64,000 bases of DNA, taken from positions 1,922,001 through 1,986,000 of the forward strand of contig NZ_JAFBCS010000001.1 in the NCBI RefSeq assembly GCF_016907845.1, in the 5' to 3' direction. Position numbers and translations under genes: made by a program. The DNA comes from Arcanobacterium pluranimalium (GTDB taxonomy: Bacteria > Actinomycetota > Actinomycetes > Actinomycetales > Actinomycetaceae). Positions 3,107-43,774 of the stretch are shown piece by piece. The notes beneath the pieces were generated by a model. It saw only the letters and a program-made list of their open reading frames with translations. It searched no databases and was not told the origin of the DNA. How positions within the stretch are numbered: the first letter of the stretch is position 1; every line of letters begins with the position of its first letter.

Positions 3107-3226
3107 TCAGGCTCCTGACCGATGTTTCTTGAACGCACGTGAGATGGTTGCCCGTGAGACACCAAAGACCTTGGCTACGGGCGTGGTGTTATCAGGAAGA
3201 ATGGTAGCGGTACGGGATGCGGACAT
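3107..3226 (-). CDS. 39-residue helix-turn-helix protein, recombinase C-terminus-like
   Basis: A very small gene whose whole product is one helix-turn-helix. The segment TPVAKVFGVSRATISRAFKK resembles the DNA-binding C-terminal domain of serine recombinases (resolvase/invertase group). AAGGAG lies 7 nt before the ATG at 3226, which supports independent translation; the longer open frame upstream (to 3748) is low-complexity and has no start signal. No catalytic recombinase domain is attached. It may be a small regulator or a decayed remnant of a recombinase. The assignment rests on motif likeness only. Confidence 0.5.
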   Translation of the reverse strand: MSASRTATILPDNTTPVAKVFGVSRATISRAFKKHRSGA

Positions 3227-3344
3227 GGCGGTAACTCCTTGCATGAACGTTCTGGATGGGGGCAATTCATACTTGGGAACAGCCCCGCCGCTCGGACAGC
3301 GGTAGAGCTGTCGTTGGGGTCGGCGTCGACGCCAGGAAGGCAGG

Positions 3345-3521
3345 GTGGAAAAGGTGACTAACAACGGGCCGAAGACCATCACGGTAGACATCACCGGCGA
3401 CATGCTGTTGCGGGCATTGAGCCGACAGGAAGTACAGGAGCGCCTTGGAGGCATTTCCCCCGCTTCTCTGGACAGGCTGCTGGCCTCGGTCGGGTCAGCT
3501 GACTGTGGTACCCGGCAGTGA
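3345..3521 (+). CDS. Small excisionase-like helix-turn-helix protein
   Basis: A 58-residue frame beginning at GTG 3345 with AGGAAGG just upstream; a second GTG at 3354 is an alternative start. The segment LSRQEVQERLGGISPASLDR has the spacing of the MerR/excisionase-type helix-turn-helix. It is divergent from the mini-HTH gene. The frame continues after the TGA at 3519-3521 for 27 more codons that look protein-like (EIHLGYIDGIEIIFSGK) before a TAG at 3603, so the gene may once have been longer. The remaining bases to 3783 hold no gene I can support. Confidence 0.4.
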   Translation: MEKVTNNGPKTITVDITGDMLLRALSRQEVQERLGGISPASLDRLLASVGSADCGTRQ

Positions 3522-3783
3522 GAGGCGCGGCACGAGGACGTTGATAACAGCGAAATCCATCTGGGGTACATCGACGGTATAGAGATCATCTTCTCGGGAA
3601 AGTAGAAGTACACCCCGTACGCGGCTTTCTGTATGTCGGGGAGACCAGACACCACAACGCCAGTAGCCGCTATTCGGGGTACAGCGCACTGAGTGACCAG
3701 GGTGTACGGCCAAGAGGTTAACGACACTCCCCCAGCTTGGCGCGGCAAGTGTTTTTAGCACTAGGTTCGGCGCCAGCCGATGC

Positions 3784-5784: not shown

Positions 5785-7857
5785 TTAGTAGTTCGTTATC
5801 AACACCTCAAGTGTAGTTGAAGAACGGTTGATTCTGCGATAGTTCGAGTTCCGGTAACTCATTGTGAGGTCGTGTTGAGTGAAATCCGAGTTCTTGATCC
5901 AGTCGCTAAGTATCTGATTGACGGCGCCTTTCGCCTCGATCACGTTTGATAGAGCAAACCTACGACCTGAGTTGTGGACGTCTTCGAGGAAGGCGAGAAG
6001 GTCACGCTCATGGGTCTCTGACCATCCGCCTCTCTCGTTATAGGTGGCCTGCGTAATCAGATACGGGGGATCGCAATAAAACACAGTGTCTAAAGGCGTG
6101 TCATCGATCTCAAAATCACGGAAATCTCCGATACGGAAGGAGCTGTCCATCTCCGAAATATGCTTGTGGAAATCCACAAGTTTGGTGCGCATTTTAGCGT
6201 TGAAGTCACGCTTCCCGACAGGAAGGTTGAACTCCCCCTTCGCATTAAACCTCAGCTGGTTGTTGAAACCATGAATCACCAGGACATATAGCAGTAGCGG
6301 GTCACGACGAGAAACATCTTCAGCGTTGTACGCTTCTCTGAGCCTCAAGAATGGTTCACGGTTTACATAGGCTAAACCTGAAGAGCTGTCCACACCGTAG
6401 TGCGTGTATGAGTACCGATGGGTGTTACTGAATCCGTAGCGGTCTGTAATCTCGTCCACGGCAGCGATGGTTTCTGCAGGGTCACTATGTGCGAGGAACT
6501 GAATTAGTTCAATGAGCTTGGGGTTGTTGTCATTAAAGACCACCCGGTCCGCGTCCACATTGGCACCGACCGTGCATCCGCCGGCGAAGAGGTCAACAAA
6601 GAGGCTTGTTCGAGGAAGATGGGGGCGTAGCTGCGGCACGAGCTTGCCCTTGCCACCGATGTAATTGATAGGGCTGAGGACTACGGCACTCGCAGGTTTG
6701 GCAGACTGTTTGACCGTGCAGACAAATAGTCGCTCACTGTTGTCTGCGATGGCAGACTTGCCGGTACTAAATGCCTTGTAGGGCCGCTCAAAAACTTGGA
6801 CGTCACCTTTTTCAGAGAGAATCTCCATGATGTCGTCGTCGGTAATTTTCGCGTTTGAGCGTCCATTCCCCTTCGTGGCCATGTTGTTATACGAGAACAC
6901 AATGTACTTGACATTCGCTTTAGCGACGAGATCCCTAAATGCTTCAGCTGCGCGAACAGTGTTGTAGTCACTCTTCAACGCCTTACGGTCCATTTTGCGG
7001 GCAACGCCGTGAACTTCTGGTTTTTCCCACCGTGCGATGTTCTCTAACAGATGGTAGGCATCACAATATTGACGCGAGTTGTATGGGGGGTCGCAGTACA
7101 GCAAGTCGCCAGAGATGTCCTCAATTAATGCGTTGGCATCGGCGTTGTAGCTCGTGTTGTTGGGCGAGAGGTCCACTGACGGCAAGACCACTGGAAAGAT
7201 TAATGATTTGTCGAATTCTGCACCTTTACGGTACGCGTCGTAGTGCCCCACTGTGTTGGCAATGCGGTCCATACCGTAAAGAATTGACGTGAGCAGAATG
7301 GCAAACTCACGTTCATTGATGAGGTTTTGAGATCGCACCTGCTCTAGTAGTTCACGGGCGGCGCCGATCTTGGAGCAGTCATCGGCGCTGAAGAAAGTGT
7401 CAGCGAAGTTTTGTCGAACGTAGTTGTCTTCGCTTGTCTCAATGGCGTTGAGACACGCAATAGCATCGATAACGACGTGAGGCCGGTAGTCTGTGGGCGA
7501 AAACCAACAGCAGCTTGTGACATAGTTGGAGTAGAGAATGTCGTTTGTGATGAGCGCCTTGTCCTTGAAGGCGTTGGCCACAGCGCCAGTGCCAGAGAAG
7601 ATGTCGATAACTGACTCGACTCCTGGGCAATGTTGGTCGACGGTCTCTCGTATAAATCCGGTCAGGCCGTGTTTGTTACCCAAGTAGCGACGGTTATTGA
7701 TCTGCGAGACCCGAACGTTATTAGCGATGAGTTCCGTCTCAATATCCTTTAATGCCTGTTCACCAAGCTCACTGGCTAATTGGCCAGCGGTGCGCTGTAC
7801 GATCTCCATAAATACTGACTCGATGGAGCGCTTCCGGGTAGCTGTGGTGGTTGTCAT
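5785..7857 (-). CDS. Fused double-domain adenine-specific DNA methyltransferase
   Basis: A 690-residue protein with two complete N6-adenine methyltransferase domains of the D12/Dam type. Domain one (about 50-380) has RRYLGNKHG, the cofactor loop DIFSGTGAVANAF and catalytic DPPYNSRQY. Domain two (about 395-690) has NYIGGKGKL, VDLFAGGCTVGAN and catalytic DPPYL. M.FokI has the same two-domain plan, where each domain methylates one strand of an asymmetric site; here each half probably does the same for the partner endonuclease's site. The ATG at 7857 has GGAGAA upstream. A 53-bp palindrome starts 15 bp upstream and may control the operon. Both catalytic motifs are intact. Confidence 0.88.
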   Translation of the reverse strand: MTTTTATRKRSIESVFMEIVQRTAGQLASELGEQALKDIETELIANNVRVSQINNRRYLGNKHGLTGFIRETVDQHCPGVESVIDIFSGTGAVANAFKDKALITNDILYSNYVTSCCWFSPTDYRPHVVIDAIACLNAIETSEDNYVRQNFADTFFSADDCSKIGAARELLEQVRSQNLINEREFAILLTSILYGMDRIANTVGHYDAYRKGAEFDKSLIFPVVLPSVDLSPNNTSYNADANALIEDISGDLLYCDPPYNSRQYCDAYHLLENIARWEKPEVHGVARKMDRKALKSDYNTVRAAEAFRDLVAKANVKYIVFSYNNMATKGNGRSNAKITDDDIMEILSEKGDVQVFERPYKAFSTGKSAIADNSERLFVCTVKQSAKPASAVVLSPINYIGGKGKLVPQLRPHLPRTSLFVDLFAGGCTVGANVDADRVVFNDNNPKLIELIQFLAHSDPAETIAAVDEITDRYGFSNTHRYSYTHYGVDSSSGLAYVNREPFLRLREAYNAEDVSRRDPLLLYVLVIHGFNNQLRFNAKGEFNLPVGKRDFNAKMRTKLVDFHKHISEMDSSFRIGDFRDFEIDDTPLDTVFYCDPPYLITQATYNERGGWSETHERDLLAFLEDVHNSGRRFALSNVIEAKGAVNQILSDWIKNSDFTQHDLTMSYRNSNYRRINRSSTTLEVLITNY

Positions 7858-7871
7858 ACTAAAGGTTCTCC

Positions 7872-7924
7872 GTTGCTCGTTGTGATACTTAGCATCCTAG
7901 ATGCTAAGTATCACAACGAGCAAC
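7872..7924 (-). promoter_or_regulatory. 53-bp perfect palindrome upstream of the restriction-modification operon
   Basis: Two perfect 25-bp arms (7872-7896 and 7900-7924) are separated by 3 bp, CTA. The element ends at the ribosome-binding site of the methyltransferase gene. Read on the minus strand it includes TTGCTC and, 18 bp later, TAGGAT, which could serve as a -35 and -10. It may be an operator spanning the promoter, or a leader hairpin if transcription starts upstream. The inner edges read GCATC and GATGC. Confidence 0.65.
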
Positions 7925-7990
7925 CCGTTCATGGAACAGTCAGGGCCTCCGGGTGCCAAGCAGTCACCCTTGCACGACAAATTCGACTCG

Positions 7991-8028: not shown

Positions 8029-8072
8029 GTGAAAAACAAAGCTCCCTACCAACATTTCTGCTGGTAGGGAGC
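8029..8072 (-). terminator. Intrinsic terminator of tRNA-fMet
   Basis: GCTCCCTACCA and its reverse complement (8041-8072) form an 11-bp stem with a 10-nt loop. On the minus strand the stem is followed by TTTGTTTTTC. It lies 8 bp after the 3' end of the tRNA gene. Confidence 0.85.
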
Positions 8073-8080
8073 TTATCTAG

Positions 8081-8154
8081 TTGCGGGGACAGGATTTGAA
8101 CCTGCGACCTCCGGGTTATGAGCCCGGCGAGCTACCGAACTGCTCCACCCCGCG
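8081..8154 (-). tRNA. Initiator tRNA-fMet (CAT anticodon)
   Basis: A 74-nt cloverleaf without encoded CCA. It begins CGCGGGG and ends CCCCGCAA, so position 1 is C opposite A72. That unpaired first position and the GGG/CCC anticodon stem around CTCATAA are hallmarks of bacterial initiator tRNA. The T-loop reads TTCAAAT. The accessory region begins on its 3' side, which is where tRNA-targeting integrases usually insert. Confidence 0.95.
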
Positions 8155-15323: not shown

Positions 15324-15372
15324 TGGTGGGGGCGGGTTTCCACAGCTGTGGAAACCCGCCCCCACCATTTTT
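15324..15372 (+). terminator. Intrinsic terminator after the zincin-like gene
   Basis: A perfect 44-bp palindrome (15324-15367), with arms TGGTGGGGGCGGGTTTCCAC plus AG and their complement, is followed by TTTTT. It lies 24 bp after the stop codon. Confidence 0.9.
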
Positions 15373-23877: not shown

Positions 23878-23892
23878 GCGAGCAAGCTAAAC

Positions 23893-23954
23893 TTTTGGGG
23901 CGTTTTTGGCAACATCTCGATATACGTAGAGATGTTGCCAAAAACGCCCCAAAA
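23893..23954. terminator. Long hairpin between trpS and the ROK gene (copy 1 of a repeat)
   Basis: Perfect 26-bp arms (23893-23918 and 23929-23954) with a 10-nt loop. The outer part TTTTGGGGCGTTTTTGGCAA is shared with another hairpin at 43693-43759. It lies between convergent genes, so it could stop both transcripts, but no T-run follows in either direction. U-less hairpin terminators have been reported in actinobacteria. Confidence 0.7.
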
Positions 23955-23969
23955 CTTGATTCATTGTGT

Positions 23970-42411: not shown

Positions 42412-43689
42412 TTGAACGAAGAAACACCCTCGTTCCCGATTGTGATGCGTGGCTATGACCGCGCACAAGTGGATGAGAAAGTCAATCAGCTCACCGAAAA
42501 ATTGGCTCATTCTCGCTCACACGTTGCAAATTTAGATGCGCAAATCCTTCGACTTTCCGGCGAACTCTCCCAAGCACAGGCGAGTCTCAAAGAAAACGAT
42601 CGTCCTTCTTACGCAGGTTTGGGAAGCCGAGTCGAACGCCTACTGCGTTCCACTGAAGAACAGGCACTCGATGTCATGACGCAAGCTCGCCGCGATGCCA
42701 AATTCATCATCGATTCTGCACATAAAAAGGCTGAATCTTTGCGTCTGGCTGCGGAAGAAGAAAGCCAAGCTTTGCTCGCTGCCGCTCAGAAAGAAGCTAT
42801 GGATATTCGCAATCTCGCTGCTAGTGAAGCACGCACCCGCACCGAAAATGCCGAGCAGGCAAGTGAAGAAATGCTCGCATCAGCACACCGCGAATCCGAG
42901 CGCATGCGTGAGCAATCAGAAGCGTCTGCTGCACACACGCGCTCCGCTGCTGAACACGAAACCACCGTATTGCGTTCAGAAGTTCAAGACGAAGTCGCTC
43001 GTTTGCGAGCCGAAGCTGAGCGTGAAACCACGCAGATGCGCACCGAAGCGCAAACTTATGCAGCGCAGGTAAAAGCAAATGCCGAATCGGAAGCAGCATC
43101 GCTACGCTCCGCCGTCGACCTCGAAATCTCTGAACTTCGCACACAAGTGCAAAACGAGGTTTCCCAAATGCGCACCGAAGCCGAAGAAGCTATCGCCCAG
43201 CACGCCAAAGAATCTGCTGCCAAATTGGCAGAAAAAGAGGCACGTCTGCGCGAATCGGCTCAGACCATGATGGAATCGGCTGAGTTCTCCGCACGGGAAG
43301 CAGAGCAGCGAGTTGCTGAAGCTACGCAGCGCGCCAATCAGCTCAATGAAACCTCGTCACAAAAAGCCACGACGATCGTTTCGCAGGCCGAAGAAGAGGC
43401 TCGCTCAATTCTTGCAGCGGCCAAAGAAGAAGCAGATCGTATTCATCGAGCAGTGGAAGAAGAGACTCAGCAGATGCGCAAATCTGCAGATGACCACGTG
43501 CAGTCGCTAGAAGATCAGCGCAATAGCCTCACTTCCTACCTTGACGATATTCGTGCCCTGCTCACAGGATCCACTTCCTCGCTGGCCTTGGGTGAAATCG
43601 TCAACAGTGCTCACAGCAATACCCACGATGCTGAGGGTGAAGCAGACGCCGCCGATACGGAAAATCAAACCGACGAAAGCGCAAACTGA
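42412..43689 (+). CDS. DivIVA-domain coiled-coil protein
   Basis: A protein of about 425 residues. A short N-terminal DivIVA-like domain (FPIVMRGYDRAQVDEKVNQL) is followed by a long continuous coiled coil rich in Glu, Ala, Arg and Ser with repeating AEAEREATxxR-type blocks, ending in an acidic Asn/Asp tail. Such proteins organise polar growth or cell division in actinobacteria. The start is the TTG at 42412: TGGAGG, five bases upstream, is a good ribosome-binding site. The ATG at 42400 overlaps that site and cannot use it. A hairpin element follows the stop. Confidence 0.82.
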   Translation: MNEETPSFPIVMRGYDRAQVDEKVNQLTEKLAHSRSHVANLDAQILRLSGELSQAQASLKENDRPSYAGLGSRVERLLRSTEEQALDVMTQARRDAKFIIDSAHKKAESLRLAAEEESQALLAAAQKEAMDIRNLAASEARTRTENAEQASEEMLASAHRESERMREQSEASAAHTRSAAEHETTVLRSEVQDEVARLRAEAERETTQMRTEAQTYAAQVKANAESEAASLRSAVDLEISELRTQVQNEVSQMRTEAEEAIAQHAKESAAKLAEKEARLRESAQTMMESAEFSAREAEQRVAEATQRANQLNETSSQKATTIVSQAEEEARSILAAAKEEADRIHRAVEEETQQMRKSADDHVQSLEDQRNSLTSYLDDIRALLTGSTSSLALGEIVNSAHSNTHDAEGEADAADTENQTDESAN

Positions 43690-43692
43690 GCT

Positions 43693-43759
43693 AATTTTGG
43701 GGCGTTTTTGGCAACTAGTGGAGGATATATCCAGATGTTGCCAAAAACGCCCCAAAATT
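43693..43759. terminator. Long hairpin (copy 2 of the repeat)
   Basis: Arms of 22 bp (43693-43714 and 43738-43759) enclose a 23-nt middle that contains GGATATATCC. The outer 20 bp equal those of the element at 23893-23954. It lies between convergent genes and may end both transcripts. Confidence 0.7.
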
Positions 43760-43774
43760 TGATCTCGTCAGTCT

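Follow-up and report, generated by a model that had tools for sequence, protein, structure and literature searches.

SfaNI is a restriction-modification (RM) system of Enterococcus faecalis. Its methyltransferase (MTase), M.SfaNI, is encoded by a single gene with two domains, and GCATC/GATGC is methylated (PMC9799307). S. xylosus TMW 2.1324 carries an AlwI-family restriction endonuclease together with one MTase gene of 2127 bp, and methylation of GCATC/GATGC was measured (PMC10030836). The AlwI family of endonucleases also includes enzymes with other targets (PMC9799307).

RM genes that enter a new cell need the protective enzyme before the nuclease, and the route by which this is achieved in Type IIS systems without a C protein is little known. 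LlaDII reportedly has two of its own sites in the MTase promoter. The MTase genes of CfrBI, where the site lies within inverted repeats, and of LlaDII and AhdI are under the control of promoter methylation, a mode described as apparently rarely used (PMC12707154). In CfrBI, methylation lowers transcription of the MTase gene; in LlaDII and AhdI, it affects only the MTase gene's own promoter (PMC12707154). M.SsoII is an MTase that binds a 15-bp palindrome (PMC6100179).

The window analyzed here is a 64,000-nucleotide stretch of the Arcanobacterium pluranimalium genome. It contains an RM operon composed of an MTase gene followed by a co-directional AlwI-family endonuclease gene, with a perfect palindrome in front of the MTase gene (Table 1). 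The endonuclease also weakly matches N.BspD6I chains.

Table 1. Features of the RM operon and its upstream region (positions in the window)
Feature	Position	Strand	Basis or remark
AlwI-family Type IIS restriction endonuclease, 662 aa	3784-5772	-	PF09491, E=1e-67
Fused double m6A MTase, 690 aa, two D12 domains	5785-7857	-	domain search; PADLOC MTase_II, 815 bits
Ribosome-binding site GGAGA	7867-7871	-	sequence; abuts the palindrome
Perfect palindrome	7872-7924	.	inverted-repeat search; proposed operator/promoter of the RM operon
GCATC-CTA-GATGC, two inverted predicted own MTase sites	7892-7904	.	sole GCATC-N3-GATGC in the window; predicted specificity, from SfaNI-like relatives
Candidate -10 hexamer TAGGAT	7894-7899	-	best-placed -10-like sequence; putative; missed by the strict sigma-70 scan
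Candidate -35 hexamer TTGCTC	7918-7923	-	outer arm; 18-nt spacer to TAGGAT; weak match, putative
Intrinsic terminator of the tRNA gene	8039-8074	-	terminator scan
tRNA-Met	8080-8154	-	homology with relatives breaks at the tRNA 3' end; the RM genes lie beyond

By its distribution among related sequences, the RM pair is foreign to this host and horizontally acquired, and the acquisition looks recent. The endonuclease is present in one of 396 genomes of the order, this one. For the MTase, matches in the genus and family are all weak or partial, and homology to congeners ends at the 3' end of the tRNA. The nearest MTase recovered by the searches, at 53% identity, belongs to a Lonepinella (Pasteurellaceae) metagenome-assembled genome. 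Other relatives are found on plasmids of Enterococcus, Staphylococcus, and lactic acid bacteria, and on viral contigs.

To approach the specificity of the window enzyme, the N-domains of 54 MTases were placed in a tree. The window protein groups within the AlwI-endonuclease clade (100/97), as sister to a Pasteurellaceae MTase (87/98), and lies outside the clade paired with FokI-type endonucleases. The SfaNI-like anatomy, a double D12-type m6A MTase beside an AlwI-family endonuclease, is present, and by gene content the system is Type IIS and SfaNI-like. Because relatives of this anatomy were measured at GCATC, this sequence is the best guess for the window enzyme, and its target is probably GCATC/GATGC. 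The single CATCC of the palindrome, listed in the earlier note, is indeed there, though it is merely the GGATG inside GGATGC. A FokI-like GGATG specificity, at which it hints, was rejected, as the endonuclease is of the AlwI family and the MTase belongs to the AlwI/SfaNI-like clade. GCATC occurs in the window as often as expected (observed/expected 1.02), and site avoidance is thus uninformative as evidence of specificity.

The repeat search bore out the earlier description of the palindrome, a 53-bp perfect inverted repeat with 25-bp arms and a 3-bp center, directly adjoining the GGAG of the MTase ribosome-binding site. The arms (7872-7896 and 7900-7924) are 100% complementary, and the center is CTA (7897-7899). 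The MTase ATG (7857, reverse strand) is 14 bp beyond the end of the palindrome. By chance, about 1e-9 such perfect palindromes (loop 0-20) are expected in 64 kb; for the whole 2.1-Mb genome, the figure is 4e-8. BLASTN of 7820-7980 against this genome returns only the self match, as does a search with the core, TTAGCATCNNNGATGCTAA, allowing two mismatches. A repeated genomic element or the end of a mobile element was rejected, since there is no second copy in the genome and none in plasmids. A 17-mer of one palindrome half is absent from the viral contigs searched.

Other inverted repeats are found elsewhere in the window. Two long ones (23890-23957 and 43688-43764) share TTTTGGGGCGTTTTTGGCAAC and constitute a repeated hairpin element in the genome. 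A perfect palindrome with overlapping 24-nt arms (TGGTGGGGGCGGGTTTCCACAGCT) lies between two genes at 15324-15367.

The palindrome could act through its structure, either as a cruciform in supercoiled DNA or as a leader hairpin by the ribosome-binding site that blocks translation of read-through transcripts. The fold is very stable, at -28.6 kcal/mol as single-stranded DNA (z = -14 against shuffles) and -49 kcal/mol as RNA, and it abuts the ribosome-binding site. A cruciform was also suggested, as a hypothesis only, for the CfrBI inverted repeats (PMC12707154). However, little read-through is expected because the tRNA terminator lies upstream, where it would shield the RM promoter from transcription arriving from that side, and a transcript that starts in the center would carry only half of the palindrome. 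An intrinsic terminator was rejected, as there is no T-run and the terminator scan lists only the tRNA terminator (8074-8039). A structural role is considered quite improbable.

The center of the palindrome contains two predicted sites of the MTase itself. GCATC (7892-7896) and GATGC (7900-7904) occupy the inner arms, where the earlier note had placed them. A random 25-bp arm holds GCATC with a probability of 0.065 (about 6.5%), and the second copy comes free because of the symmetry, so the pair by itself is suggestive. On the MTase strand, GATGC overlaps the last three bases of the candidate -10 hexamer TAGGAT. Only two TANNNT hexamers occur on this strand in the last 90 bp, TAGGAT (-42) and TAGCAT (-49). 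The possible promoter on each strand, proposed earlier from the symmetry, is a weak one: both hexamers are present on the MTase strand, but the sigma-70 scan finds no promoter in the palindrome at its threshold, and the promoter is thus hypothetical.

There is about an even chance that the palindrome is the autoregulatory promoter/operator of an SfaNI-like (GCATC) RM operon and closes once the MTase binds to its own sites or methylates them. In this it would work like CfrBI, LlaDII, and AhdI (PMC12707154). Two own MTase sites would lie head to head at the center of the palindrome, overlapping the candidate -10 hexamer. When the operon enters a new host, its sites would be unmethylated, the promoter open, and the MTase made. 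As the MTase accumulates, it would bind and/or methylate the two central sites, and transcription of the operon would fall. The outer arms probably provide a further dyad, to which a dimeric protein would bind. The palindrome, the pair of GCATC sequences, the order and family of the genes, and the enrichment of own sites ahead of homologous MTases are shown by the analysis; the enzyme specificity, the position of the promoter, and repression and its direction are inferred. The earlier note had proposed three readings: operator, leader hairpin, or self-recognized site. The last is the best of the three given the SfaNI-like gene pair and the own sites of homologues at the MTase start, although the palindrome itself is present in no homologue examined.

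The palindrome is far longer than two 5-bp sites require. The sites leave unexplained the outer arms, which extend 20 bp past them on either side and may reflect a dimeric operator, a cruciform, or the mutational self-correction of an older imperfect repeat. Because the outer arms exceed what any pair of sites needs, the palindrome could instead be an operator whose outer arms are read by a separate dimeric repressor or by the N-terminal region of the MTase, with the GCATC pair incidental. The binding of M.SsoII to its palindrome offers a parallel (PMC6100179). Helix-turn-helix (HTH) control is also used in relatives. HTH_17 is fused to the MTase in L033 (Pfam, E=2e-8) and, by alignment, in L031, L032, L068-L070, L099, and L101. 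An XRE/C-protein-like gene lies directly upstream of a split MTase in two SfaNI-like loci on viral contigs (L103, -250 to -46, and L106, -283 to -43, both counted from the MTase start), and L035 has a fused XRE-like N-terminus on its MTase. In contrast, neither Pfam nor alignment finds an HTH in the first 50 residues of the window MTase, for which AF2 gives two low-confidence helices (residues 3-45), and no XRE controller (C-protein) gene or other regulator was recognized beside the operon. A 25-bp perfect dyad also exceeds the usual operators, in agreement with the earlier remark on arm length. A separate operator is thus possible but rather unlikely.

One open reading frame near the operon (3107-3748) was considered as a regulator and rejected. 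It has no significant family and only a C-terminal HTH-like scrap, and it is probably not a gene. The scrap (3107-3220, reverse strand; VAKVFGVSRATISRAFKKHR) is terminal and lies downstream of the endonuclease, where it is perhaps the remnant of a recombinase.

Homologous loci were compared over the 110 bp that precede the MTase start, in every homologue that was usable. Start codons were hand-picked in about twenty loci, and L084 and L137 were read from a downstream start. The expectation that the palindrome would be kept beside homologous systems did not hold: no comparable palindrome was found near the MTase start in any homologous locus examined. By this comparison, the palindrome does not belong to the conserved parts of such systems.

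The absence from homologues suits a by-product without a function of its own, either an imperfect repeat that template switching made perfect or a duplication in inverted orientation at the border of the acquired island. The apparently recent arrival of the operon points the same way, and the perfect arms fit a recent origin. Against a by-product, the palindrome is positioned exactly before the ribosome-binding site, where the operon promoter must lie, and it has predicted own sites at its center. A by-product is considered improbable.

In many homologues, an own recognition site lies immediately upstream of the MTase start. Among SfaNI-like loci, GATGC is found at -9 in L033, L069, L099, and L101, and two copies are found at -18/-10 (L068), -19/-10 (L070), and -36/-27 (L100). 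In a test of all 512 5-mers, made after the pattern had been spotted by eye, GATGC ranks first in the 60 bp upstream of 16 SfaNI-like loci (12 observed vs 0.81 expected, in 8 loci). GGATG ranks first in the same interval of 19 FokI-like loci (19 observed vs 1.63 expected, in 10 loci). In both groups, the site of the other group occurs about as often as expected. Random 60-mers from the same loci give P = 5e-5 for at least 8 loci, and part of the enrichment may come from Shine-Dalgarno-like sequence or from the shared ancestry of some members.

Every one of the 11 MTases in the FokI clade plus its L078/L148 branch (L075, L076, L077, L078, L084, L086, L091, L137, L138, L140, and L148) has GGATG-N5-GGATG, 20-24 bp before the start. 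The two copies are exactly 10 bp apart, one helical turn, at about -22/-12, and the second replaces part of the Shine-Dalgarno sequence. In other genomes, most own sites are at the Shine-Dalgarno sequence of the leader and not in a -10 element. The feature is not universal, since GCATC is absent within 60 bp of the start in the nearest relatives L031, L102, L103, L104, L106, and L109. Among loci with neither an HTH nor a recognized XRE gene, the window and L100 have two sites each, and L102, L104, and L109 have none. Own sites are therefore not a simple replacement for an HTH.

Two other arrangements were observed before homologous MTases. An inverted pair, CCATC-N24-GATGG, lies at about -78 to -44 in L072, L074, and L083. 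Its spacing is identical in these loci, of which L072 and L074 are nearly copies of each other. It hints at a CCATC specificity for the L072-like sub-branch with AlwI-family endonucleases. In L081 (Leuconostoc), whose MTase has no HTH, a quasi-palindrome (TGTTAAACTGTTTAAGATACAGTTTAACA) lies at -53 to -24 and is a possible parallel to the window.

The fused double MTases of Type IIS systems (FokI-like, SfaNI-like, and possibly CCATC-like) may share a self-sensing design. Asymmetric sites of the enzyme itself, placed at the MTase start or promoter with a fixed spacing and orientation, would throttle expression through its binding or methylation. The window would be the extreme form, with the sites facing each other in a 53-bp palindrome so that symmetric methylation marks both strands. 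This wider proposal is tentative, and it could well prove wrong. No account of own sites ahead of Type IIS double MTases turned up in the open-access literature that was searched. If the sites act as a sensor, a five-letter sequence in the promoter or leader would let the MTase gauge its own activity without a dedicated regulator. The comparative data suggest that promoter methylation may be common in the Type IIS double-MTase group, and the presence of GGATG-N5-GGATG throughout the FokI clade and its branch makes the sensor idea directly testable in laboratory strains.

The SfaNI-like systems, SfaNI and that of S. xylosus TMW 2.1324, resemble the window in having a single-gene double m6A MTase with an AlwI-family endonuclease, and probably in the GCATC target (PMC9799307, PMC10030836). 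Many SfaNI-like relatives differ from the window in having an XRE gene or an HTH at the MTase N-terminus, and the palindrome is present in none of them. Where they have own sites, these are mostly at the ribosome-binding site in the same orientation, whereas those of the window are inverted within the candidate promoter.

M.SsoII and M.Ecl18kI have a palindrome at the MTase promoter through which the MTase gene is controlled (PMC6100179), as would the window. Their 15-bp operator does not coincide with the methylation site, and an N-terminal domain binds it; the window MTase appears to have no domain of this kind.

LlaDII and AhdI differ from the window in MTase class and target (PMC12707154), and neither is known to have a long palindrome. 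CfrBI has divergent genes with overlapping promoters, whereas the MTase and endonuclease genes of the window are co-directional. The window also differs from CfrBI in its asymmetric (Type IIS) target, its two back-to-back sites, and its long perfect palindrome. What the two may have in common is an own MTase site in an inverted repeat at the MTase promoter, with both site and promoter predicted in the window.
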